Origin: Eubacterium sp.
GTDB lineage: Bacteria; Bacillota; Clostridia; Lachnospirales; Lachnospiraceae
NCBI GenBank assembly: GCA_017938215.1
Contig: JAGBBZ010000011.1
Location: 1-49,601, forward strand
Direction: 5' to 3'
DNA: 49,601 nucleotides
The first letter of the stretch is position 1; every line of letters starts with the position of its first letter. A program made the translations under genes and the position numbers. Under the pieces are notes generated by a model that was not told the DNA's origin, made no database searches, and saw only the letters and a list, made by a program, of their open reading frames with translations. This document shows positions 5,441 through 37,606 of the stretch, in pieces.

Positions 5441-5471
5441 TTTGGACATAGTGAAAAAAAGGAGGATTATT

Positions 5472-8400
5472 ATGTTTTATTCACCCAAACGAATGCTTGC
5501 ATTGGCATTGGCAGTTGTGATGACCGTAACGAGTGTTGGTACATCCGCGCATGCTTATGAAGCAGAAAAAACAGATTATCTGTCGGTGACAGATAAGGAC
5601 GGAAAGGAAATTCTCGAGGATGAATCCTGGGAAGAAAAGTTTCCAAATGGAACATTTGCATTCAAATATGATTCCATTACATTGAAAGAAAAAGAAGATC
5701 AAAAAACGAAAAAGATTACGATTTACCGTCTTGGTGGAACCAAGGGAAAAGCCACAGCAAAAGTGGCAGTGGCACCTGCGGTTGTTGCTCTGGATGAGGA
5801 AGAGACGGATCTCGTATATGCCAATGCGGCGTCCAATACCGATTACACCATTCAGGTGGAAAATCCAATCGGAACGGACGGAACCATTGGAAAAAAGGAA
5901 CTGGAAAGTTCCTATGATGTAAAGTCAGAAACGAAAGAGGACAATGTCGTGCTTTCCCTGGATGGGGTGAAAGGGGAATACGTGCGATACTTCTGGCATG
6001 TAAAGACAGAGGATGAGTGGAAACCGGTAACAAGTGAAGGCGAAGAGACGCTTACCGTATCCACAGAGGAGTTTGCTGCTGGCGAGTACATGTGTGTCGT
6101 AGAAGCAGATTATGAATTGAGTGTGTCCAAATCCGCTAGTGCAAAGGAGCGAGACACAGAGGGAAAAGAAAAAGTATGGGTAAATGTAAACAGCAGACAC
6201 ATTACAAACGATGCTGCTTATGAAAAAAATACATATACCGATGTTACCATGGATGCGGCTATGCCATATAAGACAACTTTCCTGCAAGTGGATTTTGAGG
6301 AAGGGGAATGGGTAAAGGATATTGTTGTAAAGCCAACCGATGACGAAGAGCATGAAGCCGAGGAGATGGCGTCCTTTACGATTTATGATGTAGAAGGTGC
6401 TGCGTTTACAGAGACAGCAAACCGTTTTTCCATGTGCATCAGCGATGATGAAGAAGTGCTGGACAGTACCATGGGATTTTCTGTAAAAGAAGTTCGTGTG
6501 GATAAAAGTACAGGAAAAGTGAAGGTGAAAGTAAAGAGAACCGGAGCTCTCCAGTATGTCACATCGGTTGATTATGAAACCGTAGATGGAACAGCAAAAG
6601 CGGGAACCGATTATGCGAAAGCAAAAGCTTCCCTTGGTTTTAGTGGTGGAATCGATACGGGTGAGATCGAGATCGACCTTTTGGATGACAAGAAAAAAAC
6701 GGATGAAGATACGTACTTTACCATCCGATTGAAAAACGCCAAAGGTGGTAACTTGAAAAAAGGTGCGGATGAGATTCGTGTGAATTTGTTTAATACGGAT
6801 ACATCCAGTAAGGATAATGTTGCGACGGCTTCTAAGAGTAAGGAAGCAAAAGATGCGACTTCCCGTGTAAAGGAATCCAAGAAAGCCATTACCGAGTCCG
6901 ACAATGAAGTGAAGGTCGAGGCGGTGGAAAAAGAAAATACGGAACTTAAGCTTGATTCTATGGAACCCGAAGAAGGCGACATGGCAGCACAGGAAGATGC
7001 GAATTTCCACTACAATTTAAATGTCAGCGGTGCATATAGTTCCTGGGGCGACACGGTAAAAGTTAGCGATGCAGGGTCGTTCTATAAAGTAGATGGAAAT
7101 TCGAGAGTATCGTCTGCTACGGCAGGAAGTGTGCTGTTGGATACAAATCGACGTGATAATTCGTATTTTTATATTCCGAATCTTTGTAACCGATATGACA
7201 AACTGACAGGAAATTTGTATTTTCAGACAAATTATGCCTTGTATTGGGCTCGAGAATACTACAGTGGTGTTATGATGGCACTTGGTACGGAAAGCTTTGC
7301 GAATACCATATCTGATTATACAAGTACCAGTGGCGAGAATGCCATGGAAAATGCCATTAACAGTCAGAAAGGTAAAGCCACGTATAACATTTATGACCAG
7401 TATGATGATAATGACAAAAGTCGGAGTATTAGTGTAGATTTGAATAGTATTTCCAATACAGGAAGTGCCGATTATCTTGTGTTTAAGTCGTTTGTTACAA
7501 AACGTGGAAAAACGATTCGTGATCGTCATACGAAAGTGTCTGTACAGTCCGATCTTACGTTGAGACGACGAGCGTTGTCAAAAGACATCAAGATTAATGT
7601 AAATACGCCAGACAGTGATCGTTTGACCAGCATCTCCCAGAAGAATAATACCATCGGAAGTGAAACGAAGGCGTTGATCAAAGGAATTCAGCCGTCCATT
7701 TCGCTGCAAAGTGGTGGTTACAATAGTAAAAAGAAATGGTACATGGGAAGTGACCTGCTGGTAAAAACATCAGGAACCAACGGCGTGTACAAATTGGATA
7801 AAATTTCTTTGAAGGCAGATGGAAAACAAGTATATACGCGCACATTAAGCAATGGAAAAACCAATGTTCAGCTACAAAACGGCTCTTCCAGAATGTCCAC
7901 CAGTGCGCAGTATTCCATTGATTTTGATTACAATCGTTATCAGCAGATTCAGATCAACTGCGCGACGTCCATGTTGGATGTAGACACAGCGGATGATCGT
8001 ATGGATAAGATGAACCTGATTAAGAAGAACATTAAGGTAAATGGTTCATCGGCAAGTTGGTCCTCCAACACAAGTACATACATGCATACGATTCATTCGT
8101 ACAAGAATTTCAATACCATTAATTTTGGTTTGGGTGAAGGAACGAAGATTCTTTACAACGACAAAGTATACGAAGGAAGCGACACCATTACCATTTCTGA
8201 TGCAGATATGGATTCCGCAGTTCTTTCCTTTTCCGTATATACAGCAGATGCAGTTAGCGTTGTTCGTGATCCGGAGATTCTTGGTGAGAAAAAAGTATCG
8301 TTGTTCGAAGATAAAAACAACGATGGAAAATATACCGCAGCAGCCGATGGTTATGAGCCATTTTTGGTACTGGATGCCGGACAGTCCTATGATATTACGA

Positions 8401-11400
8401 ATTTCCGTAAGAGAAATGGAAACAATGTGGTGATCCACGTAGAGTATTCCATGCAACCAGCATCCTTGAACGTGCCACCGGGGGCGACAGGAAATGAGAC
8501 ATTTACGGTGGTTCCAGGATTTGTAACAACCTTGACGACCGAGGAAGAAAAAGCGAAGTTATCCAAAGAAATGAAAGGATATCGTGATATTGCTTCCAAA
8601 GATGGAACAGCACCGATGTATGGACGTGTTTCTGGTGGAAGCGTATCTTTCTTAGCTGGAAATGATAATAGTCCGGCTAGGATGAACGAACAAACCGAAG
8701 CTTACGAGTGGACACCGGATTGGGATGGAAATCTTCGCGCGAATTTTGATAACCCGGAAAAAATTAAAGTGTATGAAACAAAGATGCCAAATGGTTTCGT
8801 GGCGGCATCTACCAAGGCGCAGATTAATGAGTATCTTGGATGTATTCACGGAAATGACACTTACGTATTGACATCTCGTGTCAATGGAACTACAGGGGAG
8901 AAGATAACTGCCACTCAGAAAGGTGGATTCTATACCGTGCCGGAACCACCAGCTATGGCATTTGAATCGGATCCGACGGGAGAGGCAGCAGCACCATCAG
9001 ATAATACCGGAACCACAAGCGATCAGCCGGATGTGGCGAAGACATCTCCAAGTGTGGATATGCCAAAGATTAATATCGGTCTGGGGCATGGAAGCTTCTT
9101 TATGGAAGGAGATGAAATTGGTTTCTCCATTGGAACACAGATCTTTGGGTATGACCGGGCAACGGATGGTGCCAATGGAACGAGTGTCTTGGGCTCCTCA
9201 GCAATGAAAGACATGAAGGATGCCATGACCAGTAAAGATGATAATATCTTTAAGCAGTTGAGAAAAGCCGGTTCCAAAGATACTTATAGTAATAACAAAA
9301 AGGGGAGTGCCGGTTCAGCCACTTCTATGAAGGATAAGCAAAAACATGGAAAGGGCTCGGGAAGTATTGACTTTGCAGTGAACATGTCATTTATTTGGAA
9401 ATACAGTAAACTGACTGGTCATTTTGAGTTTTCTTCCGCGATGATTGCATTGTCCATTGAAGGAAGTCTTCGATTCCAGTATCGCTTCCAGGTTTGCCCA
9501 ATCTTCTATGTGTACGTCCAGGTTGGTTTGGGACTAGAGGCACAAACCGGGTTGGAAATGGAAAAGAAAGAAGTCCAAAAAGAAGATGGAACAACAACGA
9601 TTAAAAATGAGGTATCCTTCGCGGGAATTTCATTGAATCCGTCGGCGTATGTTGAAGCAGGAGCGGGAGTCGGAGTCGAATTAGCAAAATTAGAGATTTT
9701 CGTTAAAGTATCGGTGTCCTTCGCCTTTACGTTAGGCGAAGAGTCTCAGGTGGATGAGTTTATCACGGATGCAGCAGTGGGATTCCGAGCGGTATTCTTA
9801 TTCTTCTCTTACGAGATGGATCTCATCGGATGTCGAGCTGGATATGATGCCTCCCGAAAAGATGAAGGAAAGAAACCTTGGTTCTTCTCCTGGCGAGTTG
9901 TTGGCATTGACATGGGAGGAACGGAAGGAGATGATATTGATTCCGAAGTGGACGGTGCCGGTGTGACGGTGTCGAAGCCAAAGAATCGGTATCGGTTACA
10001 GAATATTTATTCCTCCGATGACAATGCCGAAAGCGATATGTCTGCTTTGGCATATGACGTAGAAGGAATTGAGGAATTCCAAGTAAGCGGTTATGGAAAC
10101 AATACCTCTGCTGTGGAATTGGCAAGTGGATTTGACAATGCATCGGATTTTCAGCTGTTGACAGTAGGAGAAACCAACTATGTATTGTATACCATTAGTC
10201 GTAAGAACCCATCCCATAGTATCCATACAACACAGCTTGTTATGTCAAAGCTTTCCACTACTGCAAGTGTGCCAGAGGGAGGCGACCTAGAAGCGCAGGA
10301 AGTAATGGGGCTTGTGAATCCAATTGACGAAAATGCAGCTACAAAATATATTGTGGTGGACCGTGTGGGCGGTGCCGCAGATGCGACAGGAGATTTGGAT
10401 TATGATGCTGTTGTGGATGGCAATAAAATTAAAGTGACATGGACATCTTATATGGAGAATGCAGCGGATGATATTCCAGAAAGCATGGATTCCCAGAGCA
10501 TGTTGCAGAAGGCAAGTCAGAAGCTTCAAGTAAAAACAGCAGAATTCGATGCCGAAAATCCGGCTGAGTTTACAGAGGCGAAAGCGTTGACGACAGAAGG
10601 TGCGTTCAATTTCTTGCCAAAAAGTGGTACCTCCGATGTTCATTTCTTCGCAGATACAAAAGCGTATTCCGAAGAGGAAATGGCAGAAAGAGAAACCGGT
10701 TATCAGGAAAAATACGAGCAGGATGCAGAAGGAAATGAGGCAGATGGCGAAGAGGGTACGGGAGATCCGTATGCAAAAGCCAATTACGAATATGCACTTA
10801 CCACGGATTACTTGTATGGTAAGTATTCCAGATTGTACTATAGTGTGAAGCAGCCAGATGGTTTGTATGATACTCAGAATGTAGAATTGACGGATGAGTG
10901 GAAAGAACAGGGAACTCGTCTGAATGATGTACAGGTGATAAAAGGCAGTGATGATAATTATTTCATCGCATATACTACCGATCAGAAGAATACCTACGGG
11001 GAAGAAAACGAGTATGCAACCGTGAAGAAGTTGTATATTCAGGAAGCTACTGTTGAGACGGTAGAAGTGGAAACAGCAGCGGCAGAAAGTGCAGATGTTG
11101 AGACAACCACTGTTGAACGACGAGAAATGGATTTGAAACAACCGGTTCTTTTGAAAACGTTGGTTGACTTTGAGGACTCCGATGAGAAGGATGGTGAATA
11201 TGTAGGTGGAGCGTTGACGACGCCAATGGAATCGCCAAACTTTACAGACTTGAAGTTTTTGGAAGGAAAGCTGAGCAGCGATTCGGACAAAGAGATCTTC
11301 ATGTTGTATAACATGAATTCCACAACCTATGTCATTGACCAGAAAAACATCAAGGATGCACTGGGAAGTGACGAAGCTACCATCAATGTCAAACCGTTGT

Positions 11401-14400
11401 TTGAGGTGGATACAGAAGACGGAAGCATGCAGGCAGAGGCTACCATTGGTGTAGACGGAGATGGAAATATCTCAGCAGTCTTTACACAAACGGTGCCAAA
11501 TACAGTAAACAATGCACTTTATGTGACAAAGTATGATCCAACGACCCAGGGATTTGGTGAAGCCTTTATGTTGGCTATGAACAAAATGCAGGTGTATGAG
11601 GATTGTATTTCACAGAATTTGTCTCCGGAAGATACGAGAAAAGCATTCTTCCAGAAGCAAGAGGATGGTAAGGTAGATAAGTTTATCTTCAATTCTCCAC
11701 AGATTGCCCTTGGCAAACCAACCACAGAAAACGAAAGTGGTACATTGACAATTTTGACAAAGGGTACGTTGACCAAGTTGGTGGAAACGACGTATGAGCT
11801 TGGTGGGGAATCAAGAACGGAGTTTGTACCGGATACTTCCGACGGAAGTATGGATGGAAATGCAGGTATTTATGCGATTTCCTACGGAGTAGGCAAACAA
11901 AAAATCGGTGAAACATCCATTACATTCGAGAAAAACAATTTTGTGAAAAATGCAACTTTGAATGGAAATGTTTCCTTCCGTAATACCGGAGATGTGGCGA
12001 TTCGTGCCAGCGAGGCAAATCCGGCAACGGTTACGATGAAAGTACAGACGGATAGTGGTGTGTATGAATTGGCACAGTGGGAATTGAAAGGAAATGTGCT
12101 GGCAGGACAGCAGGTGGTTACCGATAAGATCGAGACCAATCCATTGCCAGCTGACGTGTCAACTGGTGTGATTTTCTTTGAAATACAGGAAGATCCGGAT
12201 TATTCCGATGCACCAAAGATTAGCAGCATTGAGGAAGAAGAAGGAACCGGTAAGATCACCGTTGGTGAGAAAGCAGAGCTTTCCATCGATGAGTTGGAAA
12301 TTCGTACCGGAGACACCATCGAGCAGCGTACCGTAAATGGCGTGCCTTGTGCCGTGGCAGACGTGGAAATGTCGGTTAGCAACTTGGGCGTGAAGAATGC
12401 TTCCAATGTAACATTTGCCATTAAACGTTCCTCCGGAATGACGGCGGATAATGAGGAAAAATACGTTCCTTTGGAAGTGCAGGGTGATTTTGTTCTTGGT
12501 GAAAATGATGAAGTACTGATAGGAAACGGTAACGAAGAAGGTGTCTTTGATTTCCTGTCCTACTGGGATGAAACAGATGGAGCGGTAGTGGCGAATAAAA
12601 TAATTCCAGCGGGTACTACACGTACGATCAAAGGACGAGTTATGATTCCGCTTACTGCTTTTGATAGCGAGGATGCCAGTGGAGCTGCCAATATTCATAT
12701 GACGATTCAGTGTGATGGAGAGGAATATGAGAGCAGAAACAATACAGCAACTTCCCGATTTGTACCAACGACACGCTTTGACTGTTTGGACAATGTTTCC
12801 TTGACAGTTGGAAATCCAGTCAGCTTTAAAGTGAATCTTCAGAAGGCGATGGATATTACGAGAAGAAGTAATATCATGTTGACGGAGATGAAGGTAAGCA
12901 GTAATGGTGAATTGGTGGAAGCTACGGATAAATTGCTTGCAAATGCTGCTTATAATACACGGACCGGACATGCAACTATAACGGCTGCGAAAGAAGGTTC
13001 CGGTATTTTGCGAATCGCAGATACAGCAACTTCATCCTTTAAGGATATCGCATTTGTATCAACGATGTCGGGATGTAACATTCATACCGACAGTCCGGTG
13101 TATGAGTTTTTGAAGAAGGCAGATGGTGGAGTGACATGGGAGAACAAGGATGTCGGAACGGTACATGAAGGAACCATTTTGCCGGAAAACAGTGATATTT
13201 GTATTGGTAAGGAAGGTGGAAGCTTTACCTTCACTACTTACGCAAGAAGTATTGATTTGTATTTCGATGGAAAAGTTCGTGTCAGCAGTATTAACAGTTT
13301 TGGATTTACCGCACGTGAGTACAATTCATCCGATGGTGTGGAGGATGGACATTACTTCAAACGTCAGACCATTGACTTTGGAAACACGCAGTTGAAAAAG
13401 CATACTGTTACGGTAAAAGTGTTGAGCGGAACCGCTTCCTTTGACCATATGGTAGAGTATTATGCAGATCGTTCCGAAGGAGTAAGTAACTTGGATATCC
13501 TAGTGGACGAGACGGCACCAAGAATTTTCCTTGGAAAATCTCTTCCAGATGAGGGAACTCGTTTGAAACCGGGAACTCTTTTGGAGATTCCAGTGTATGT
13601 GTACGATGATGTGATGTTGAACTCCATTAGTATCAATGGTAGTGGTGCGGAGGAAAATGAGAGCAATCAGTTTGCGAAAGGTACTTTGCGTATCAAGAAA
13701 AACGGTGTATACCATGTGATTGTACAGGATAGCTCAGGTAATATTTCTCAGAAACAGGTGGAGATCACTTGTTATGAGGAAGGTGCCGAAAAAGTACAAG
13801 ATGCTACCGATACGTGGCCAAAAGTAGATTTGAAGCTTGTGGATGACAAAGACCAGGAGATTACCACAGCCACAAACTCCAATGCATATTTTGGCTATGA
13901 GATCCAGGCAGAGCACAAGGTGGAATCCATTGAGGTATCCAAGGTGGATATGGAGACCACAGATGTTACGGCGATCGGGGATCCGGTTGAAGTAGAAGCG
14001 GATGTAGAAGAACTTTCCGGAACCTATCCGGTAAACCTTATGTCCAATGGATATTATGAAGTAAAAGTAACAGATAAGATTGGAAATGTTACGAAGGTTA
14101 TCTACAACGTTGATATGTTGTCCCGCGGACAGGTAGTCACACTTTATGTGGCTGATCATGAGAAGAATGAAATGTTCTACTGCGTTGGTGATGAAGATAA
14201 TGAAATAGCGCTGAAGAAGATGGTGATCTACAAAGGCGTTGTAGAGGCAGATGAATACGATCAAGATTTGAATGTTGCAGGAAAAGAGCCATTGTTTACG
14301 AAAACCTATGATGACGAGACGATGGATTCGGAAACAATTACGCTGGATAAGAAGATTGGTCATAGTAAGTTTACCATTATTGCCAGTGACGTTTCCGGTA

Positions 14401-17309
14401 AGGTTACACATTATGTATATTCGGATGGAACTTGTCTGGATAACTTGGTGGTAGGTAATGCAGAAGATTTGGGATATGGTCTCCAGATAAATGAGGAATT
14501 CAAGCCATATCAGAGAGAATATGAAGTATTCCTTCCTTATGGATATCCATTAGATCGTGTTCCGGAAGTAAATGTAGTGGCAAAAGAGAATGCACAGGTA
14601 TCCAAGGTATGGAATGAAGATGTTCTGACTCTCACTGTAAAGAGTGGAAGAGTAGAGAATACATATACCATTACACTGAATCGTGAAATTTGTACATGTG
14701 ATATGGTGCTGGATGTGGACGAATCGACAATTATTGTTCCAAAGGAAAGTGGACATGCAGCAGAGGAGATTCGTGCCAGAGCAGATGTTGTACAGTGTGA
14801 AGTTCATGGAAAACATTTGGTTGAAAATATCACATATGCATATGAGATTGAAACGGCCGGATACGAGATTCCATTGTATGAAACAGCAGGAATCGAAACA
14901 GAATTGCTGGAAAGCGCGAGACCGGAGTACAATTTTGGAGAGAATGTAGACGTAGAGACGGTAACAGTAGAGACGGTAACCGCAGAGACGGTAACAATAG
15001 AGACCGTTCAAGTAGATACGCCATCGTCAACGGTGACAATTGGCGAGGATACGGTGATTCGTTTGACGGGTAATACATTGGATGCCAGTCGTATTCCGGA
15101 AGGAACCAATCAGGTATTCGTACGAGTGAAGGTTACGGCAACGTCGCCATCCATGAAGGCGCACCGCTATGTTACCTATCGCATCTCCAACCAATATGAT
15201 GTTGGGCTTTACCTCACACCGGGTGGTCAGGTAACTTGCGGAGAAGATACGATGATGGCAATGGAAGGAAACGAAGGTTCACAGGAAGAATTGGAAAAAG
15301 AAGGCGTGCTTCTTCAAGACCCGGATGAGCCAATTCGATATGATCTGGATACCGGTTCTGAATTGTTGTTATGTGCGCAGGAAAAAGAAGGATACGAGTT
15401 TGTAGGCTGGTTTAATGCAGATGAAGAAAAACTCAGTGCAAACAAAGAAATCTTATACATCGTAGGTAAGGATGCAAGTATTCGAGCATTGTTTAAGGAT
15501 GTGGTGAAACCGACAGGAAGCATCACATTGACAGATAAGACGGGAACGAATAATGTCATGACATCCGACGAGGGTGATATTCTCGTATCTGCCGAAGGAT
15601 TTACGGCGGAGATAAAAGCGGAAGATGCTCATTCCGGTGTGCAATCCGTACAGTATCAGATCGTGAAAAGGGGAGAAACCTATGATCCAGCGGGTGAATG
15701 GAAAACATATGGACTTACTCCTTTGGATCTGACAGAGGAAATGGACTTTGTCATGTATGTTAAAATCGTAGACAAGGATGGCAATGAAACGATTGTACAG
15801 TCCGAACGTACGATGATTGAAAAGTCCTTTGCAGGAATCGATGCGGCACCGAACTTTACAGAAGGCGTATTTACCAATCGAAAGGATGCGGCAATCATGG
15901 TTCTTGTGAAGAAGGGAATCGCAGCGATTCGTGAGATTACGTACAAAGTCGGGGAGGAAACCTACACTTCAGAAGAAATGACATTTGGTGTGGAAAATCT
16001 TCCGGATGGTGTGTACGATGTAACAATTCAAGTTACAGACGTATTTGGTAAGACGGTTGAGACGGTTGTACCAGTGAAGAAAGATACCGAGAATCCGGTA
16101 TTGACCATTACTGGTGTACCGGAAACAGAAACCGTAGAAGAAGCTGTTTTGGGAATTGAAGCAGATGGCGGATTGTCCGGTGTGAAGGAAGTTCGCGTAA
16201 ACGGAGAAACATGGGCAGAAGATACCTATACGGTAACAGAAAATGGAACTTACGTATTTGAGTTGGAGAACAACGCAGGAACTGCAGTGGCGGAGACGGT
16301 AAATATTGATAAAATCTTGATTCCGACACCGGCACCAACACCGACAGTAGCACCTGCATTGGAACCAACGACACCACCAACAGCAAATGCAGGAGTGGGA
16401 GAAATGCCGAATGGGGCAACCGGTGTGACAACAGCGTCACCTGCGGAAAATGTAATTCCTGATATTACAGAGATTAAAGTTCCAGCCAAGATGACTGTTG
16501 GTAAGGGGACATCGGAAGCGATTTCAGCGCAAGTTCTTCCGGCTGGAAGTGAAGCAAATGGCTTGACGTATGAAAGTACGAAAAAGTCAGTGGCGACAGT
16601 AAGTGCCCAAGGCGTCATAACTGGTAAGAAGTTTGGTAAGACAGAGATTATCGTTCGTTCGAAGAAAAATTCGAATGTAAAGGCGAAGATTGCGGTAACG
16701 GTTGTTTTACCGGTAACGAAAGAAATCCGTCTGGAAAGCTTAGGAAAGAAAGGTGCCCGCGTTACTTGGAAGGGCGTAAAAGAAGCCGTGGCTTACAAGG
16801 TTTATCGTTCCACGAAATCCAATGGAACGTATAAGCTGGTAGCTAAGGTGAAACAAAGTGTTTATACAAGCAAGAAGAAAGATGCGGATAAATACTATTA
16901 CAAAGTAGTCGCTGTTGCGAAAAATAAGAAGTACAATAGTGATTACAGTGCCTATACCGCAAAAGTACAGCTTCCTCCGGCAGCAGCTGGTGTATCTGCA
17001 GATGTGACAAAAGTCAAGGCAGAAAAACTTGCTGGTAAGGTGAAGAAGGTAAAAGCAAAAGCGAAGAAAGGCAAGATTGTAGTGTCTTGGAAGAAGTTCA
17101 AGAACGCAAAAAGCTATGTTGTATATCGCGCAGAAAGCCAGTATGGAATCTTTGATGAATATAAGGTGGTTAAAACGGCTAAGCTGAAGGATACATGCGT
17201 AGTGAAAGGTAAGAAGTACTATTACAAAGTACGTGCCATTACATACAAGAATGGAGAGCGTAAATTGATTAGTGATATTACCAAACAGATTCATGCAAAA
17301 GCCAGATAA
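5472..17309 (+). CDS. Giant secreted multidomain surface protein (3,945 aa)
   Basis: A Sec signal peptide at residues 1-28 (cut after SAHA) leads an exported protein of 3,945 residues. ATG 5472 is preferred to the upstream TTG 5442 because GGAGG at 5461-5465 lies 6 bases before it. Modules visible in order are: a Calx-beta domain (about 338-440); a beta-rich, partly hydrophobic stretch (about 1310-1487); a VET-rich tract (1859-1883); two CARDB-like beta domains (about 2140-2435); an Ig-like domain (about 2675-2768); a cadherin-like beta-sandwich (about 2990-3076); a VETVT repeat tract (3161-3183); an InlB B-repeat-like domain (about 3243-3346); further Ig-like domains to 3616; a Pro/Thr linker; a Big_2 domain (about 3666-3748); and two Lys-rich Fn3-like domains to the end. 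There is no LPXTG, SLH repeat or C-terminal membrane segment, so it must be released or held non-covalently. An adhesive or structural role is inferred, not shown. Confidence 0.85.
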   Translation: MFYSPKRMLALALAVVMTVTSVGTSAHAYEAEKTDYLSVTDKDGKEILEDESWEEKFPNGTFAFKYDSITLKEKEDQKTKKITIYRLGGTKGKATAKVAVAPAVVALDEEETDLVYANAASNTDYTIQVENPIGTDGTIGKKELESSYDVKSETKEDNVVLSLDGVKGEYVRYFWHVKTEDEWKPVTSEGEETLTVSTEEFAAGEYMCVVEADYELSVSKSASAKERDTEGKEKVWVNVNSRHITNDAAYEKNTYTDVTMDAAMPYKTTFLQVDFEEGEWVKDIVVKPTDDEEHEAEEMASFTIYDVEGAAFTETANRFSMCISDDEEVLDSTMGFSVKEVRVDKSTGKVKVKVKRTGALQYVTSVDYETVDGTAKAGTDYAKAKASLGFSGGIDTGEIEIDLLDDKKKTDEDTYFTIRLKNAKGGNLKKGADEIRVNLFNTDTSSKDNVATASKSKEAKDATSRVKESKKAITESDNEVKVEAVEKENTELKLDSMEPEEGDMAAQEDANFHYNLNVSGAYSSWGDTVKVSDAGSFYKVDGNSRVSSATAGSVLLDTNRRDNSYFYIPNLCNRYDKLTGNLYFQTNYALYWAREYYSGVMMALGTESFANTISDYTSTSGENAMENAINSQKGKATYNIYDQYDDNDKSRSISVDLNSISNTGSADYLVFKSFVTKRGKTIRDRHTKVSVQSDLTLRRRALSKDIKINVNTPDSDRLTSISQKNNTIGSETKALIKGIQPSISLQSGGYNSKKKWYMGSDLLVKTSGTNGVYKLDKISLKADGKQVYTRTLSNGKTNVQLQNGSSRMSTSAQYSIDFDYNRYQQIQINCATSMLDVDTADDRMDKMNLIKKNIKVNGSSASWSSNTSTYMHTIHSYKNFNTINFGLGEGTKILYNDKVYEGSDTITISDADMDSAVLSFSVYTADAVSVVRDPEILGEKKVSLFEDKNNDGKYTAAADGYEPFLVLDAGQSYDITNFRKRNGNNVVIHVEYSMQPASLNVPPGATGNETFTVVPGFVTTLTTEEEKAKLSKEMKGYRDIASKDGTAPMYGRVSGGSVSFLAGNDNSPARMNEQTEAYEWTPDWDGNLRANFDNPEKIKVYETKMPNGFVAASTKAQINEYLGCIHGNDTYVLTSRVNGTTGEKITATQKGGFYTVPEPPAMAFESDPTGEAAAPSDNTGTTSDQPDVAKTSPSVDMPKINIGLGHGSFFMEGDEIGFSIGTQIFGYDRATDGANGTSVLGSSAMKDMKDAMTSKDDNIFKQLRKAGSKDTYSNNKKGSAGSATSMKDKQKHGKGSGSIDFAVNMSFIWKYSKLTGHFEFSSAMIALSIEGSLRFQYRFQVCPIFYVYVQVGLGLEAQTGLEMEKKEVQKEDGTTTIKNEVSFAGISLNPSAYVEAGAGVGVELAKLEIFVKVSVSFAFTLGEESQVDEFITDAAVGFRAVFLFFSYEMDLIGCRAGYDASRKDEGKKPWFFSWRVVGIDMGGTEGDDIDSEVDGAGVTVSKPKNRYRLQNIYSSDDNAESDMSALAYDVEGIEEFQVSGYGNNTSAVELASGFDNASDFQLLTVGETNYVLYTISRKNPSHSIHTTQLVMSKLSTTASVPEGGDLEAQEVMGLVNPIDENAATKYIVVDRVGGAADATGDLDYDAVVDGNKIKVTWTSYMENAADDIPESMDSQSMLQKASQKLQVKTAEFDAENPAEFTEAKALTTEGAFNFLPKSGTSDVHFFADTKAYSEEEMAERETGYQEKYEQDAEGNEADGEEGTGDPYAKANYEYALTTDYLYGKYSRLYYSVKQPDGLYDTQNVELTDEWKEQGTRLNDVQVIKGSDDNYFIAYTTDQKNTYGEENEYATVKKLYIQEATVETVEVETAAAESADVETTTVERREMDLKQPVLLKTLVDFEDSDEKDGEYVGGALTTPMESPNFTDLKFLEGKLSSDSDKEIFMLYNMNSTTYVIDQKNIKDALGSDEATINVKPLFEVDTEDGSMQAEATIGVDGDGNISAVFTQTVPNTVNNALYVTKYDPTTQGFGEAFMLAMNKMQVYEDCISQNLSPEDTRKAFFQKQEDGKVDKFIFNSPQIALGKPTTENESGTLTILTKGTLTKLVETTYELGGESRTEFVPDTSDGSMDGNAGIYAISYGVGKQKIGETSITFEKNNFVKNATLNGNVSFRNTGDVAIRASEANPATVTMKVQTDSGVYELAQWELKGNVLAGQQVVTDKIETNPLPADVSTGVIFFEIQEDPDYSDAPKISSIEEEEGTGKITVGEKAELSIDELEIRTGDTIEQRTVNGVPCAVADVEMSVSNLGVKNASNVTFAIKRSSGMTADNEEKYVPLEVQGDFVLGENDEVLIGNGNEEGVFDFLSYWDETDGAVVANKIIPAGTTRTIKGRVMIPLTAFDSEDASGAANIHMTIQCDGEEYESRNNTATSRFVPTTRFDCLDNVSLTVGNPVSFKVNLQKAMDITRRSNIMLTEMKVSSNGELVEATDKLLANAAYNTRTGHATITAAKEGSGILRIADTATSSFKDIAFVSTMSGCNIHTDSPVYEFLKKADGGVTWENKDVGTVHEGTILPENSDICIGKEGGSFTFTTYARSIDLYFDGKVRVSSINSFGFTAREYNSSDGVEDGHYFKRQTIDFGNTQLKKHTVTVKVLSGTASFDHMVEYYADRSEGVSNLDILVDETAPRIFLGKSLPDEGTRLKPGTLLEIPVYVYDDVMLNSISINGSGAEENESNQFAKGTLRIKKNGVYHVIVQDSSGNISQKQVEITCYEEGAEKVQDATDTWPKVDLKLVDDKDQEITTATNSNAYFGYEIQAEHKVESIEVSKVDMETTDVTAIGDPVEVEADVEELSGTYPVNLMSNGYYEVKVTDKIGNVTKVIYNVDMLSRGQVVTLYVADHEKNEMFYCVGDEDNEIALKKMVIYKGVVEADEYDQDLNVAGKEPLFTKTYDDETMDSETITLDKKIGHSKFTIIASDVSGKVTHYVYSDGTCLDNLVVGNAEDLGYGLQINEEFKPYQREYEVFLPYGYPLDRVPEVNVVAKENAQVSKVWNEDVLTLTVKSGRVENTYTITLNREICTCDMVLDVDESTIIVPKESGHAAEEIRARADVVQCEVHGKHLVENITYAYEIETAGYEIPLYETAGIETELLESARPEYNFGENVDVETVTVETVTAETVTIETVQVDTPSSTVTIGEDTVIRLTGNTLDASRIPEGTNQVFVRVKVTATSPSMKAHRYVTYRISNQYDVGLYLTPGGQVTCGEDTMMAMEGNEGSQEELEKEGVLLQDPDEPIRYDLDTGSELLLCAQEKEGYEFVGWFNADEEKLSANKEILYIVGKDASIRALFKDVVKPTGSITLTDKTGTNNVMTSDEGDILVSAEGFTAEIKAEDAHSGVQSVQYQIVKRGETYDPAGEWKTYGLTPLDLTEEMDFVMYVKIVDKDGNETIVQSERTMIEKSFAGIDAAPNFTEGVFTNRKDAAIMVLVKKGIAAIREITYKVGEETYTSEEMTFGVENLPDGVYDVTIQVTDVFGKTVETVVPVKKDTENPVLTITGVPETETVEEAVLGIEADGGLSGVKEVRVNGETWAEDTYTVTENGTYVFELENNAGTAVAETVNIDKILIPTPAPTPTVAPALEPTTPPTANAGVGEMPNGATGVTTASPAENVIPDITEIKVPAKMTVGKGTSEAISAQVLPAGSEANGLTYESTKKSVATVSAQGVITGKKFGKTEIIVRSKKNSNVKAKIAVTVVLPVTKEIRLESLGKKGARVTWKGVKEAVAYKVYRSTKSNGTYKLVAKVKQSVYTSKKKDADKYYYKVVAVAKNKKYNSDYSAYTAKVQLPPAAAGVSADVTKVKAEKLAGKVKKVKAKAKKGKIVVSWKKFKNAKSYVVYRAESQYGIFDEYKVVKTAKLKDTCVVKGKKYYYKVRAITYKNGERKLISDITKQIHAKAR
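11047..11121 (+). repeat. VET-rich low-complexity tract in the giant gene
   Basis: Codons in this stretch give TVETVEVETAAAESADVETT, a degenerate version of the VETVT repeat that occurs again at 14952-15020. It looks like a flexible spacer between folded domains. Confidence 0.6.
14952..15020 (+). repeat. Tandem 15-bp repeat encoding VETVT units
   Basis: Units gtagagacggtaaca (14952-14966), gtagagacggtaacc (14967-14981), gcagagacggtaaca (14982-14996) and the more diverged atagagaccgttcaa (14997-15011) run head to tail, with a partial fifth unit. They encode VETVT-VETVT-AETVT-IETVQ. Every unit keeps the reading frame, so copy-number change would alter only spacer length. Confidence 0.85.
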
Positions 17310-32489: not shown

Positions 32490-32518
32490 TTGAATTTGCA
32501 TTATGTTTGTGTTAAAAT
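32490..32518 (+). promoter_or_regulatory. Sigma-A promoter of the stand-alone NRPS-like cluster
   Basis: TTGAAT (32490-32495), 17 bases, TAAAAT (32513-32518) lie 47 bases before the first gene. Matches are 4 of 6 and 5 of 6. The tight spacing of all six genes downstream suggests one transcript from here. Confidence 0.6.
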
Positions 32519-32565: not shown

Positions 32566-33117
32566 ATGCTTTATCTTGCAGAATACATATCTACAACTTC
32601 AAAAGAAGATAAAATTACCGAACATGAATTGGGAAGGCAGCTGTTGAGACAGGGGCTGGAGCAAGAGTACGGGCAGATCTGGGAAGTTTATGTGGAAGAA
32701 AAGAAAAAGCCGGTTCTTAAGGACGCGGAAGGCATTTGTTTTAACATAAGTCATACCAAGGGGTTAGTAGCTTGTGGGATTTCTCGGCTAGAAATTGGTG
32801 TAGATGTGGAGCGGATTCGCAAGTTTAAGGAAGCTTTGGTGCGAAAAGTGTGTTCGGAAAAGGAACAAAAATATGTATTTGCAGGAAAAGATGACCAAGA
32901 GAAGGCGACACGCTTTTGCAAGCTTTGGACACTGAAAGAAAGTTACATCAAAGCAATCGGAAAGGGACTTGCATTTCCTTTGGATAAGATTACCTTTGAG
33001 ATAATCGGAGATGAGATTTGTTCCAATATTCCGGGATGGCGCTATGAACAATTCGAGTATGGAAAAGAGTATATTATAGCAGTGTGCTACCAGTACACGG
33101 AAAGAGGAAACGTATGA
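32566..33117 (+). CDS. 4'-phosphopantetheinyl transferase, Sfp-type
   Basis: A 183-residue enzyme that moves the phosphopantetheine arm of coenzyme A onto a carrier-protein serine. The three family motifs are visible: NISHT (60-64), GVDVERI (78-84, Mg2+ ligands Asp80 and Glu82) and WTLKESYIKAIGKGL (121-135, Glu125 and Lys129). It is shorter than Sfp (about 224 residues) but longer than AcpS, and carries the WTxKE motif of the Sfp group. Lying first in an operon with a stand-alone carrier protein, it most likely activates that carrier. AAAGGA precedes the ATG, and its stop overlaps the next start as ATGA. Confidence 0.9.
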   Translation: MLYLAEYISTTSKEDKITEHELGRQLLRQGLEQEYGQIWEVYVEEKKKPVLKDAEGICFNISHTKGLVACGISRLEIGVDVERIRKFKEALVRKVCSEKEQKYVFAGKDDQEKATRFCKLWTLKESYIKAIGKGLAFPLDKITFEIIGDEICSNIPGWRYEQFEYGKEYIIAVCYQYTERGNV

Positions 33118-33431
33118 CGTATGAAGAGATTTTTGCAACAGTAAAAGAAAAATTTAAGGATGCAGATGTGAGCGGAATTCAGGAGCACTTGGCATATCAG
33201 TTCAACATCACTGGTGAGGGCGAAGGGGCTTTTTACGCAGAAGTAAAAGAAGGGCAATTATATGTGGAACCGTATGAATATTACGATCGTGATGCCATTT
33301 TCATTTGTTCTGCGAAGACGCTATTTAAGATAATAGATGGTAAATTGGATCCGGTGGCGGCATTTACCGTGGGAAAATTAAAAGTAGAAGGAAACATCGA
33401 CAAGGCATTGAAGTTAAAGGAATTTATCTAG
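33114..33431 (+). CDS. SCP2 sterol-binding domain protein
   Basis: A 105-residue single-domain protein. Its pattern (YQFNITGEGEGAFYAEVKEGQL, then FKIIDGKLDPVAAFTVGKLKVEGN) is that of the SCP2 family, small folds with a hydrophobic tunnel for lipids or acyl chains. ATG 33114 is chosen because GAGGAAA lies just upstream and the ATG overlaps the transferase stop (ATGA); the 10 codons before it in frame lie inside the transferase gene. In this cluster it may bind an acyl substrate or product, which is inference from context. Confidence 0.85.
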   Translation: MTYEEIFATVKEKFKDADVSGIQEHLAYQFNITGEGEGAFYAEVKEGQLYVEPYEYYDRDAIFICSAKTLFKIIDGKLDPVAAFTVGKLKVEGNIDKALKLKEFI

Positions 33432-33452
33432 GATACAAGGAGCGTTGATAAC

Positions 33453-34394
33453 GTGCTTAAATGGATTGCAGGAGCAGTGGCGTTAGGCGTTGTGGGTGAG
33501 TTCGCCATTGCAAAGTATTTTTTTCATCGGACGATGATGCGTTCCAATGCAAAGCGAGAACGCACGCAAAAAATGGCGGGGACGGATTGGGATGCCTACA
33601 TTCCGAATATTCGTGCTTGCCGTGAGTGGTTAGTTGAAAATCCTCATGAAGAAGTTCGTATCATTTCGGAAGATGGATTGAAGTTGTATGGGAATTTCTT
33701 TCCTTGTGAGGGATCGGATAAAGTGGTTATTTGCTTTCATGGATATACCAGTGAAGGGCTAAATGACTATACGACAGTGGCAAGATTTTATCTGGAGGAA
33801 GGATATAATCTGTTGATCGTAGACGAGCGGGCTCACGGAAAGAGCGAGGGAACCTATATCGGCTTTGGGTGTTTGGATCGGCATGATGCGAAAAAGTGGA
33901 TTGAATACGTAGTAAATCGTCTCGGAGAAGATTGTAAAATTGTTCTTCATGGTGATTCTATGGGAGGTGCCACAGTTCTTATGACGACGGGGTTAGAACT
34001 TCCATCACAGGTAAAAGCAGTAGTGTCAGATTGTGCGTTTACCTCGGCGTGGGAAGTGTTTTGTTCCGTGTTGAAAAACATGTATCATATGTATCCGTAT
34101 CCGGTGATGCAGATTTCCAATGCCATGGTAAAGAAAAAAGCAGGATACGAGTTGGATGAGTGCAATGCCAAGAGAGAAGTAGCAAAGGCGAATGTTCCAA
34201 TATTGTTTATGCATGGGGATTCCGATACGTTTGTGCCATGTTCCATGGTGTATGAGTTACATGATGCATGTAATTCGAAAAAGGAGCTTGTGATTATAGA
34301 AGGGGCAGGGCATGTGGAGTCTTGCTACAAGAACCCGGAGAAATATATGGGGGCGATTCGATCTTTTGTCTTTCCGATTGTGGAAGAGGCATAG
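33453..34394 (+). CDS. Alpha/beta hydrolase with N-terminal membrane anchor
   Basis: A 313-residue protein with one hydrophobic N-terminal helix (about 2-20) followed by basic residues, then an alpha/beta-hydrolase fold. The nucleophile elbow is HGDSMGG with Ser169, the oxyanion turn is CFHGYTSEG (94-102), and the remaining triad is Asp258 (HGDSDTF) and His287 (GAGHVES). The family includes esterases, thioesterases and acyltransferases; in a cluster with a carrier protein, release of a product from the carrier or trimming of an acyl group is plausible. The GTG start at 33453 lies 10 bases after AAGGAG and begins MLKWIAGAVA. It sits 21 bases after the SCP2 gene. Confidence 0.85.
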   Translation: MLKWIAGAVALGVVGEFAIAKYFFHRTMMRSNAKRERTQKMAGTDWDAYIPNIRACREWLVENPHEEVRIISEDGLKLYGNFFPCEGSDKVVICFHGYTSEGLNDYTTVARFYLEEGYNLLIVDERAHGKSEGTYIGFGCLDRHDAKKWIEYVVNRLGEDCKIVLHGDSMGGATVLMTTGLELPSQVKAVVSDCAFTSAWEVFCSVLKNMYHMYPYPVMQISNAMVKKKAGYELDECNAKREVAKANVPILFMHGDSDTFVPCSMVYELHDACNSKKELVIIEGAGHVESCYKNPEKYMGAIRSFVFPIVEEA

Positions 34395-34418
34395 GAGAAA
34401 GGACGAAAAGGTGAAAGT

Positions 34419-35822
34419 ATGGAGAAGAAAAAGGAGTACAAGGTTTATCCGTTGACATCGGCGCAGAAATTGCATTATTATAGCATGAAATTTTGCCCGA
34501 AAAAACAAGTGTTAAACATTGGATCGGGGCTTACGATTCAGGTGGAATTGGATTGGTACTTGCTGGAACAAAGCATTAAAGAGGCGGTAAAGAGATGTGA
34601 ATCCATGCGCGTCCGTTTTACGGAGGACAAAGATGGTACGGCATATCAGTATGTGGTTCCCCATGAAACGCAGTCGGTAAAGCATTTTGACTTTTCGGAG
34701 TGGAGTGAGGAAGAGGCTCATGCTAAGATGGATGAGTGGACGTGTGAGCCATTTGAATTTTATGATCAGCCGTTGCATGAAATTACCATGATCAAAATGC
34801 CAAAGGGATTTCATGGAATGTACATAAAGGTAAATCATATGATTATGGATGCCCAGTCCTTGGTGGCATTTTTTAAAGATGTGATTGAGATTTACTGCAG
34901 TCGAATTTATGATGATATTCCGTATCCAAAAGAAATGGCATCCTATATACGTCAGCTGGAAAAGGATCTTGCCTATGAAGCAGGCACGAAAGCAAGTGAG
35001 AAAGATCGAAAGTTTTTTGAGGATTTGATTACATCTTCGGAACCGATTTTCACGGATATTTATGGAAGAGACAAATTAGAGGCGGAGCGGGAGAAGACTG
35101 GTAATCCAAACCTCCGAGCAGCTACCAATACGTCAGATAACGTAGATGCGAATTTGGGATTGTTCCAGTTGGAAACGGAGCCGTCCTTAGAACTCTTGAA
35201 ATTCTGTGAAGAGCAGCAGGTGTCCATGACTTGTCTGTTGCTGATGGGACTTCGTACCTTTTTACAGAAGGAAAATGACGAGGAGGATGTGTCGGTGACC
35301 ACCACCATTGCCCGTCGCGCGACTTTGATGGAAAAGCGTTGTGGTGGAACGAGAATTCATTGTTTCCCATTCCGTACAATCGTTTCCCGAGAGGATTCCT
35401 TTATTGAAGGGATTTATAAAATTCGAGATATGCAAAATCAATACTTCCGTCATGCGAATTACAGTCCGTCAGAATATTATGCGTTTCGTTCGAAGTATTA
35501 TAAGTTGCAGCCGGGACAGACTTATGAGCCACTGTCGTTGACCTACCAACCGTTGACATTAAAGTACGATGGACCAGGATTGGAAGAGCTTGGCGATATT
35601 CAGTACAATATCAAGCGTTATACCAATGGAGCAGCGGCACATGCGTTGTATCTTACCGTAAGTCATCGACCGGATGGTGGATTGGATTTCTGTTTTGAAC
35701 ACCAGACAGGAGTGGTAACTCCAAAACGTCTGGAAGAGATTTATTACTTTTTGTGTCGTATTATTTTCCGCGGTGTGGAAGATTGTAACCGCAGCGTAGG
35801 GGAAATTATTGATTGGGCTTAA
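34419..35822 (+). CDS. Stand-alone condensation-domain-like protein
   Basis: A 467-residue protein with the overall pattern of an NRPS condensation domain or related CoA/carrier-dependent acyltransferase (WES/PapA/chloramphenicol acetyltransferase superfamily). It has the N-terminal YPLTSAQKLHY motif, a central active-site motif NHMIMDA (139-145), and late motifs around RIHCFPFRT and SHRPDGGLDFCFE. The usual HHxxxDG is changed: the first His is Asn, His140 (general base) and Asp144 remain, and the final Gly is Ala. This favours an active but non-canonical acyltransferase over a standard peptide-forming domain. It probably joins the acyl or aminoacyl group on the neighbouring carrier protein to a free acceptor. 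It lies 24 bases after the hydrolase gene and 21 before the carrier gene. Confidence 0.78.
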   Translation: MEKKKEYKVYPLTSAQKLHYYSMKFCPKKQVLNIGSGLTIQVELDWYLLEQSIKEAVKRCESMRVRFTEDKDGTAYQYVVPHETQSVKHFDFSEWSEEEAHAKMDEWTCEPFEFYDQPLHEITMIKMPKGFHGMYIKVNHMIMDAQSLVAFFKDVIEIYCSRIYDDIPYPKEMASYIRQLEKDLAYEAGTKASEKDRKFFEDLITSSEPIFTDIYGRDKLEAEREKTGNPNLRAATNTSDNVDANLGLFQLETEPSLELLKFCEEQQVSMTCLLLMGLRTFLQKENDEEDVSVTTTIARRATLMEKRCGGTRIHCFPFRTIVSREDSFIEGIYKIRDMQNQYFRHANYSPSEYYAFRSKYYKLQPGQTYEPLSLTYQPLTLKYDGPGLEELGDIQYNIKRYTNGAAAHALYLTVSHRPDGGLDFCFEHQTGVVTPKRLEEIYYFLCRIIFRGVEDCNRSVGEIIDWA

Positions 35823-35843
35823 AGAAAGGAATGAGGTAAAAGT

Positions 35844-36071
35844 ATGTTAGAAGAGTTAAGAGAAGTAATCTGTCAGTATGTGGAGGTTGAACCGGAGAAA
35901 GTCACAGAAGAGGCGAGATTTATCGAAGACCTTGGATTTAATTCATATGATTTTATGAGTCTCGTAGGTGAGATTGAAGAGATGTACGATGTGGAAGTAG
36001 AGGAGCGCGAAGTGGTAAACGTGAAAACAGTAGGCGACGCGATTGAGTATATCCAATCCATTCGAGAATAA
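35844..36071 (+). CDS. Stand-alone acyl/peptidyl carrier protein
   Basis: A 75-residue acidic four-helix carrier protein. The phosphopantetheine site is Ser34 in DLGFNSYDFMSL, where the usual DSL of fatty-acid ACP is replaced by NSYD, so it is a specialised carrier and not the fatty-acid synthase ACP. AGGAATGAGG precedes the ATG. It lies between the condensing and the adenylating enzyme, and the phosphopantetheinyl transferase of the same operon is its likely activator. Confidence 0.9.
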   Translation: MLEELREVICQYVEVEPEKVTEEARFIEDLGFNSYDFMSLVGEIEEMYDVEVEEREVVNVKTVGDAIEYIQSIRE

Positions 36072-36097
36072 AGTCAGAGAAGAATAGGAGAAAATGT

Positions 36098-37606
36098 ATG
36101 ACCCCAAAGACGTTGAAGGATATTATTAATTACGGTGCTACGACCTATGGTGAGCAGGCAGCGTATCGCTATAAGGTGCGGAAGGAAATTGCGAAAAAAA
36201 CGTATCTGGAGGTACAACGCGATTCGATGGCAGTGAGCCGGATGGTGGAAAAACTGGGGATGAAGGGAAGGCATATTGCTATCCTTGGAACCACTACGTA
36301 TGAGTGGATTATCAGTTTTTTTGGCGTGACCAATAGTGCAAGCGTGGCAGTGCCAATTGACGTCCAGTTGCCGGTGGATGACATATGTGAATTGCTGGAA
36401 CGAGCAGATGTGGAAATGCTGATTTACGATGAGCTGCGCAAAGATGTGGCAGCAGCGGTAAAAGAAAAATGCCCACGGATTCAGTGCCTCATATCCATGC
36501 AGGCAGAGGAAGCGACGGAGGGTGTTTTGAGTTTGCATCGTTTGTTGGAAGAGAACCAGGGGAATTACGATACGGACATTGATCCAGAGCAGCTTTGCGT
36601 TATTTTATTTACCTCAGGAACGACAGGAAAGAGCAAGGGAGTCATGCTCTGTCATCGGAATTTGACAGACAATGCCACAGTGTTGGATTACAAATTCCCG
36701 GTGGGAATGGTGGCGATGACATTGTTGCCGATCAATCATGTGTATTGCTTGACCATGGATATCATCAAGGGCTTGTACATTGGTGTCACTTCCTGCATTA
36801 ACGACTCCATCATGCGTGTACAGAAAAATATGAAGTTGTTCCAGCCGGAAATGGTATTGTTGGTGCCGTTGGTAATTGAGTCCATCTATGCCAAGTTAAA
36901 GGCGGCGGGTGGTATGATGCCGAAGAAAATGGTGGCAAAGGCGGCTTTTGGTGGCAACCTAAAATACATTTGCAGTGGTGGTGCGTATCTGAACCCGGAT
37001 TATGTGGACAAGTTTGCAGAGTATGGTATTACAATCTTGCAAGGATACGGCATGACAGAGTGTTCCCCGGTAATTAGTTCGAATCTTCCATGGGATAGTC
37101 GAAAAGGTTCTGTTGGTAAATTGTTACCAAACTGCCAGGCGAAAGTGGTGGATGAAGAAATCTGGGTCAAAGGCTCCAGCGTTATGATGGGATACTACAA
37201 AATGCCGGAAGAAACAGCGGAAGCATTGGAAGACGGTTGGCTAAAAACGGGAGATCTTGGTTATGTGGATGAGGATGATTTTATCTATATAACCGGACGA
37301 AAGAAAAATTTGATTATCCTTGCCAATGGCGAAAATGTGTCGCCAGAGGAAATAGAGAATCAATTAAGCGTACAGGAATTGATCAAAGAAATTCTTGTTC
37401 GCGAAAAAGATGCAGTAATTGAAGCGGAAATCTTTCCCGACTATGAATATGCAAAGAAAAAGCGCATCAAAGATGTGAAAGAGAAATTGCAGGAACTGAT
37501 TGACGAATATAACGAGAGTACCACCGTGTATAAGCGGATTCATAGTCTTGTGGTCCGAGAGACCGAGTTTGACAAGACGACGGCTAAGAAGATCAAACGC
37601 TTCTAA
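36098..37606 (+). CDS. AMP-forming adenylating enzyme (acyl-CoA synthetase / NRPS A-domain family)
   Basis: A 502-residue ANL-superfamily enzyme. Core motifs in order: FTSGTTGKSKG (about 171-181, P-loop), YGMTECSPVI (about 317-326), KTGDLGYVDEDD (about 383-394), GRKKNLI hinge, NGENVSPEEIE, and a C-terminal TAKKIKRF with the catalytic Lys. It activates a carboxylic acid as its adenylate and should load it on the carrier protein just upstream. The long-chain acyl-CoA synthetase-like layout (no fused T domain, MMGYYKMPEE segment) fits a fatty or aromatic acid at least as well as an amino acid; substrate residues cannot be read reliably by eye. RBS AGGAG precedes the ATG; it follows the carrier gene by 26 bases. 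Confidence 0.88.
   Translation: MTPKTLKDIINYGATTYGEQAAYRYKVRKEIAKKTYLEVQRDSMAVSRMVEKLGMKGRHIAILGTTTYEWIISFFGVTNSASVAVPIDVQLPVDDICELLERADVEMLIYDELRKDVAAAVKEKCPRIQCLISMQAEEATEGVLSLHRLLEENQGNYDTDIDPEQLCVILFTSGTTGKSKGVMLCHRNLTDNATVLDYKFPVGMVAMTLLPINHVYCLTMDIIKGLYIGVTSCINDSIMRVQKNMKLFQPEMVLLVPLVIESIYAKLKAAGGMMPKKMVAKAAFGGNLKYICSGGAYLNPDYVDKFAEYGITILQGYGMTECSPVISSNLPWDSRKGSVGKLLPNCQAKVVDEEIWVKGSSVMMGYYKMPEETAEALEDGWLKTGDLGYVDEDDFIYITGRKKNLIILANGENVSPEEIENQLSVQELIKEILVREKDAVIEAEIFPDYEYAKKKRIKDVKEKLQELIDEYNESTTVYKRIHSLVVRETEFDKTTAKKIKRF

Follow-up and report, generated by a model that had tools for sequence, protein, structure and literature searches.

Probable identity of the pathway

The window analysed here, the whole stretch of 49,601 nucleotides at positions 1 to 49,601 of contig JAGBBZ010000011.1 (Eubacterium sp., Lachnospiraceae; assembly GCA_017938215.1), carries an operon of six genes for a phosphopantetheinyl transferase (PPTase), an SCP2-domain protein, an alpha/beta hydrolase, a stand-alone condensation protein (C), an acyl carrier protein (T) and an AMP-ligase (A) (Table 1). 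Comparison with characterised relatives makes it likely that this operon belongs with the published CTA / Oaa pathways for fatty acid amides (FAA, or acyl amines), as a member of a separate clade, with N-acyl amides formed from free fatty acids as the most likely product. A preliminary description of these genes named no known system with exactly this set. For the core this is incorrect, as C, T and A are those of the CTA / Oaa-type operon of Lachnospiraceae, which is already known. The SCP2-containing clade, the TetR gene and double operator linked to it, and the fusions of the PPTase may be undescribed.

The best solved relative of window C is PDB 12KH, deposited as OaaC of Coprococcus eutactus (E 1.7e-95, residues 8-465 of 467), with 35.5% identity over 454 aligned residues, and across the OaaC-type insertion the window protein aligns without gaps. 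OaaC joins an acyl chain held on a carrier to a free amine, and OaaA, OaaACP and OaaC together make fatty acid amides in vitro (PMC13142362). An acyl amide, one of the products suggested in the preliminary description, is supported as the likely product. Such genes have been named CTA operons, with homologs in 36 species, all Lachnospiraceae, and are linked to acyl amine production in Blautia and Coprococcus (PMC13060934); both papers credit Chang et al. 2021 as the founding work, which is also cited in PMC10191378 and PMC12479983. The window shares with the CTA operons of Clostridia, such as that of Blautia wexlerae (PMC13060934), the family Lachnospiraceae, a patchy distribution within genera and genes for a stand-alone C, a carrier and an A in the order C-T-A, the arrangement by which a CTA / fatty acid amide operon is recognised. 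With the Oaa pathway it has in common the free-standing C, T and A proteins, the near-full-length homology of C including the insertion, and the lack of an acceptor carrier. It differs in that window C lies in a sister clade, has the motif NHxxxDA rather than DHxxxDS, and is accompanied by SCP2, hydrolase and PPTase genes, compared with three proteins in PMC13142362. Identity to OaaC, the only characterised protein compared, is below the 70% cut-off (to characterised C and A) of PMC13060934.

A modular nonribosomal peptide synthetase (NRPS) was considered and rejected: the proteins are separate, there is no acceptor-carrier synthetase, and window C is the only PF00668 match in its own genome, which is 68% complete. 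This agrees with the earlier statement that no multimodular synthetase is present. NRPS starter condensation domains, to which PMC13142362 relates the FAA proteins, share with window C the condensation fold and the acyl donor but belong to modular synthetases, which the window lacks.

Phylogenetic analysis of C places the window in clade I (50 of the 68 rows, support 99/94) and OaaC in the sister clade II (14 rows, 100/100), the C domains of three long NRPS-type frames being separate from both. These outgroups are few and long-branched, only three of eight NRPS regions having given a long enough C stretch, and the tree includes one C of known function. A further protein, from locus L087, is long-branched and falls outside both clades with weak support; this locus (genome G047) holds a divergent stand-alone C in the gene order C-A-T-PPTase. 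The comparison covers 66 loci, each viewed over 5 kb on the 5' side and 6 kb on the 3' side of C as far as contig ends permit, or 64 after removal of L089 and L090, duplicates of L014 and L019; 50 belong to clade I and 14 are others (13 of the OaaC clade, and L087). Locus L088, with a truncated C and no carrier found, was excluded from the tree and the alignments, and proteins of unusual length were left out of the alignments.

When 299 genomes of the family were searched with window C, 64 gave matches, with 29 places at 50% identity or above (window included), 14 at 31-38% and the rest weak (19-30%); a scan of contigs of named genomes yielded 24 loci with identities of 68-76%. Of 39 genomes of the window's genus, 22 carry a match (12 at 55% or above, its own included, and 10 at 32-37%), and the trait is therefore patchy. 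Strong matches were found in 33 of 392 genomes sampled across the order, including three from another family of that order (loci L140-L142), and in one of 398 sampled across the phylum, namely the window's own genome, few genomes of that sample being listed as of this family.

The usual order in clade I is SCP2-hydrolase-C-T-A, and the five proteins show correlated pairwise distances (r 0.65-0.92 in 40 loci, calculated without a species-tree baseline). The preliminary description had proposed one pathway of carrier-bound acyl chemistry, against which an unconserved gene order or an unmodified carrier would have counted. As far as sequence tells, neither is the case, since the core order is conserved across relatives and the carrier serine is invariant in all 61 aligned carriers. 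The full set of six genes in the window's order is nevertheless uncommon, being found in four loci besides the window: L002, L023, L148 (same genus) and L091.

SCP2 and the hydrolase

Among the 299 genomes, an SCP2 gene lies beside C in 27 of the 29 clade I places and in none of the 14 more distant ones at 31-38%, which are mostly OaaC-type. The start-to-start distance is below 3,000 bp in 26 of the 29, with G101 at 3,025 bp; this count leaves out the last 12 SCP2 matches, which come from genomes lacking a C match of either clade. The hydrolase gene is located 5' of C in all 50 clade I loci, and a relative of it (31-33%) occupies this position in four of the 14 others. Its nucleophile motif GDSMGG contains Ser169, which together with D258 and H287 is invariant in the 49 clade I (window included) and four clade II hydrolases aligned. 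Among proteins of solved structure, its closest matches in sequence are esterases and other alpha/beta hydrolases, followed at lower rank by monoglyceride lipases. The hydrolase is probably membrane-anchored, and the basic residues that follow its hydrophobic N-terminus suggest a cytoplasmic catalytic part. SCP2 and the hydrolase are thus candidate further pathway parts, beyond the three-protein reconstitution of PMC13142362. A term search of the available text of PMC13060934 gave no mention of SCP2, sterol carrier, hydrolase, repressor, regulator or TetR. SCP2, hydrolase and TetR likewise do not appear with such operons in the text of both papers as available to us, although the supplements or Chang et al. 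2021 may hold some of this; open-literature searches gave no other account of SCP2 or TetR with such operons, and the operator sequence described below was not itself searched in print.

Both SCP2 and the hydrophobic N-terminus of the hydrolase point to activity at the membrane, and it had been proposed that an acylated lipid or acyl amide remains in the cell envelope and works together with the GH18 wall enzyme encoded next. The GH18 gene does follow, as described, without a terminator-like site on the plus strand between it and A. Yet no gene in the 66 related loci bears a GH18 label, the amidase gene that lies past GH18 in the window has a single weak match (29%, in L021), the genes 3' of A vary from locus to locus, and OaaC, the relative of C whose function is known, forms fatty acid amides from free amines. 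We therefore regard an envelope-lipid pathway as very improbable and no longer uphold the link to GH18, which on the evidence of these 66 loci is rejected as a part of the operon.

We also considered whether SCP2 marks a cluster in which C has been replaced by another joining enzyme. Seventeen SCP2 regions without a nearby C were inspected by eye as ORF (open reading frame) lists, and the idea was rejected as no shared replacement was noticed; an eighteenth region, L073, holds an OaaC-type C. Two of the SCP2-bearing stretches merit separate mention. In L064 (7110-9060, genome G031), an operator lies between the TetR and SCP2 genes, which are followed by fragments of an A gene, as in a decayed operon that has seemingly kept the switch and the lipid carrier. 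In L063 (1520-1756, genome G070), a carrier gene lies near SCP2, with no match to window C or A in the stretch examined.

PPTase, carrier and ligase

A PPTase gene adjoins the operon in nine of the 71 loci scanned, as well as in the window, and does so at three positions: before SCP2 or the hydrolase (window, L002, L003, L023, L091 and L148), between T and A (L140-L142), and after T (L087). Two apparent fusions were observed. In L142 (8674-10758, genome G518), whose operon is of the fatty acid amide type and belongs to another family, PPTase and A share one open frame of 694 codons in which Pfam detects both domains, and in L023 (5427-6428) PPTase and SCP2, the first two proteins of the operon, share one open frame. 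This recurrence at three positions, together with fusion, supports a functional tie to the operon. However, the PPTase may be the general enzyme of the cell, placed here by chance, so that the true pathway has five genes; we consider this credible but somewhat doubtful. It would agree with the operon PPTase being the sole PF01648 match in its own, 68% complete, genome and the sole PPTase found in that of L002, and with the lack of a PPTase at 62 of the 71 loci, some of which are short of flanking sequence. It accounts less readily for the three operon positions, one of them between T and A in another family, for the shared frames with A and SCP2, and for the second PPTase match in G300 and G301 (L003 and L023) and in G149, additional to that of the operon. 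In view of the sole matches in the two genomes, the description of the PPTase as dedicated is unproven.

The expected attachment of phosphopantetheine to the carrier agrees with the sequence, Ser34 being the predicted site and corresponding to the invariant serine. The residue before it is mostly N, T or S, and most clade I carriers read LGF(N/T/S)S(Y/F)DF. The usual carrier motif is DSL, and the other carrier above the cut-off in the window's own genome has GADSLD; this difference hints that the operon carrier may work separately from fatty acid synthesis.

The ligase A scores 253 bits against PRK06187 (long-chain acyl ligase) and 131.5 bits against TIGR01733 (amino-acid adenylation), both below the curated cut-offs, and contains the motifs TSGTTGK, GYGMTE and a C-terminal KIKR. 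The earlier view that it is nearer to an acyl-CoA synthetase than to an amino-acid A domain agrees with this profile resemblance, and we propose that it is a fatty acid activator.

A divergent TetR gene and a putative double operator

Beside 29 of the 50 clade I loci lies a divergent TetR gene (Pfam-confirmed in L102 and L091). TetR genes are also found beside four of the 17 SCP2 regions without a nearby C (L058, L060, L064 and L067, three of them Pfam-confirmed) and beside L140-L142. A TetR-operator-SCP2 core thus persists in some genomes without visible C-T-A genes or with decayed ones. A different TetR-type gene is common to nine loci of the OaaC clade (L074-L080, L082 and L083), on the opposite strand and in most of them after A; L079, the only one checked with Pfam, gave TetR_C_8.

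The palindrome TYGACC-n3-GGTCRA (at most one mismatch) is present in all 34 gaps between TetR and operon, and exactly so in 27. These gaps comprise 27 of clade I, four of SCP2-only regions and three of another family, L088 and L091 having been left out of the scan; in 100 shuffles of the gaps a mean of 0.05 regions and a maximum of one had the palindrome. As the regions are related, the 34 gaps are not independent cases. Two copies (at most two mismatches) are found in 28 of the 34, spaced 43-45 bp apart in 24, 22-24 bp in three (those of another family) and 54 bp in one. In many gaps, judged by eye, the first of the two copies covers part of a TTGAC-type -35 element, with the second immediately beyond a -10 element. 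In the genome of L091 an exact site lies between the PPTase and TetR genes. In 47 selected genomes, 30 with and 17 without this TetR gene linked to the operon or to SCP2, 34 exact sites were counted, spread over 24 genomes; 28 of the sites are in the TetR gap (22 genomes) and six elsewhere (one in G076, two in G274 and three in G005). That most exact sites are at the TetR gap suggests that the TetR regulon consists of one operon.

The statement that the cluster has no regulator is true of the window and does not extend to its relatives. No TetR gene was found in the stretch examined for the 17 tree rows nearest the window (itself included), the contigs of L002 and L007 ending within ~0.3 kb of the operon. 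The 300 bp 5' of the window's operon contain no operator (best match with four mismatches), and the whole window has seven matches at up to three mismatches against 12.6 expected by chance. Nor was an operator found in the 16 other rows (239-450 bp each, best matches with 3-5 mismatches), and the five genomes of this branch among the 47 above (G000, G064, G310, G327 and G343) lack the exact pattern. Some members of the branch have a PPTase gene. The window's genome has only weak TetR relatives, at 26-29% over 65-68 residues. Since the neighbouring branches of clade I have the switch, its loss in the window's branch would be the simplest reading.

Condensation motif and strength of the assignment

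The motif of FAA condensation domains has been given as (D/H)HxxxD followed by S, A or G, the last residue being Ser in 42% and Ala in 36% of 127 domains (PMC13142362). In our alignment all 65 rows keep the second His and the Asp. Every one of the 50 clade I rows ends the motif in Ala, against Ser in 14 of the 15 rows counted as clade II, which here include L087 and OaaC; the full motif is (N/D/H)HxxxDA in the former and (D/N)HxxxD(S/A) in the latter. Because Ala is this frequent in the published FAA set, that set probably covers clade I as well as clade II.

These motif differences raise the alternative that clade I enzymes transfer the acyl chain not to a free amine but to some other nucleophile, for instance an amino acid, an alcohol or the headgroup of a membrane lipid. 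A clade I motif that ends in Ala, not Ser, and often begins with Asn, the low identity (31-37%) of window C to clade II rows and the lack of a product on record here for clade I would be compatible with this. On the other hand, the core gene set is the same, with a stand-alone C and no acceptor carrier, and the share of Ala in the FAA domains of PMC13142362 indicates that they probably include clade I. We consider a different nucleophile improbable, and favour the fatty acid amide pathway.

Several observations weigh against a clade I fatty acid amide pathway in the form given above. For no member of clade I did this analysis find a measured product, OaaC being in the sister clade at 35.5% identity. 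The motif of window C, like those of 21 of the 50 clade I rows, begins with Asn, outside the published (D/H)H formula. In a quick second tree with 11 more rows, from which L122, one of the three NRPS regions, was left out, support for clade I was 0.41, so that its boundary is not firm. In the same tree L140-L142, whose C motif ends in Ser, join the clade of OaaC with weak support (0.685); their C proteins are 43-51% identical to that of the window and 39-41% to OaaC, two being closer to the window by 3-8 points and one by 10 points. SCP2 is present in 42 of the 50 clade I loci and lacking in eight (one of them, L012, cut by a contig edge), and of the 42 best SCP2 matches 15 lie on contigs without a clade I C, so that SCP2 is not strictly needed. 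Finally, the 34 operator sites in the 47 genomes compare with 37 for a reversed control, compared by number alone; the pattern is no commoner than chance genome-wide, and it is therefore its position that tells.

Proposed mechanism

By analogy with OaaA, OaaACP and OaaC (in vitro, PMC13142362), the A, T and C steps of this operon would proceed as follows. The PPTase would convert apo-T to holo-T, and A would activate a free fatty acid with ATP and load it on T. The C protein would then take the acyl chain from T and join it to a free small amine, and the N-acyl amide would be released without an acceptor carrier and without a thioesterase. More tentatively, SCP2 may shuttle either free fatty acid or finished amide between the membrane and A or C, and fatty acid may come from acyl esters cut by the hydrolase, unless, as is less likely, this enzyme cuts stalled acyl-T or the amide.

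In many relatives, TetR bound at the double operator would keep the operon repressed until its ligand, in the simplest case a fatty acid, is present. Human receptors respond to fatty acid amides from gut Lachnospiraceae, and these amides may shield the bacteria from fatty acids (PMC13142362, PMC13060934), and detoxification of fatty acids has been proposed as the role in Blautia (PMC13060934), which a switch released by fatty acid would fit. As a tentative proposal, which we consider possible but somewhat less likely than not, clade I may be a fatty-acid response system in which TetR at the double operator (TTCGACC-n3-GGTCGAA, mostly 43-45 bp apart) senses a fatty acid or the product and switches on the SCP2 shuttle, the hydrolase and a C-T-A core that detoxifies fatty acids to amides. 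If confirmed, the operator and repressor would show when the amides are made and what the bacteria sense, and the ligand of TetR would bear on the native role, detoxification or signalling.

Organization of the operon and the window

The six genes were described earlier as tightly packed, and all are found as ORFs at the positions in Table 1, each protein exceeding its Pfam cut-off. The PPTase end and the SCP2 start overlap by 4 bp (ATGA), and the remaining gaps are 21-26 bp. Transcription from one promoter, as had been proposed, is consistent with a suitably placed consensus site 5' of the operon; the region, however, holds no excess of such sites over shuffled sequence (18 against 19.2 expected).

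Table 1. Genes and promoter-like site of the operon in the window
Feature	Position	Strand	Evidence
PPTase, Sfp-type 4'-phosphopantetheinyl transferase, first gene of the operon	32566-33117	+	Pfam ACPS 1.1e-18
SCP2-domain small lipid-carrier protein, 105 aa	33114-33431	+	Pfam SCP2 2.4e-15
Alpha/beta hydrolase with hydrophobic N-terminal segment	33453-34394	+	Pfam Hydrolase_4 1e-17
Stand-alone condensation protein C, probable fatty acid amide type, motif NHMIMDA	34419-35822	+	Pfam Condensation 2.6e-39
Acyl carrier protein T, LGFNSYDFMSL, Ser34 expected attachment site	35844-36071	+	Pfam PP-binding 2.1e-11
AMP-ligase A, acyl-CoA-synthetase-like, proposed fatty acid activator	36098-37606	+	Pfam AMP-binding 5e-62
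Promoter-like site TTGAAT-17-TAAAAT, 5' of the operon	32490-32518	+	Consensus match only

Elsewhere in the window, the plus strand at 5442-17309 holds an ORF of 3955 residues with Calx-beta and bacterial Ig-like domains, probably a giant surface protein.

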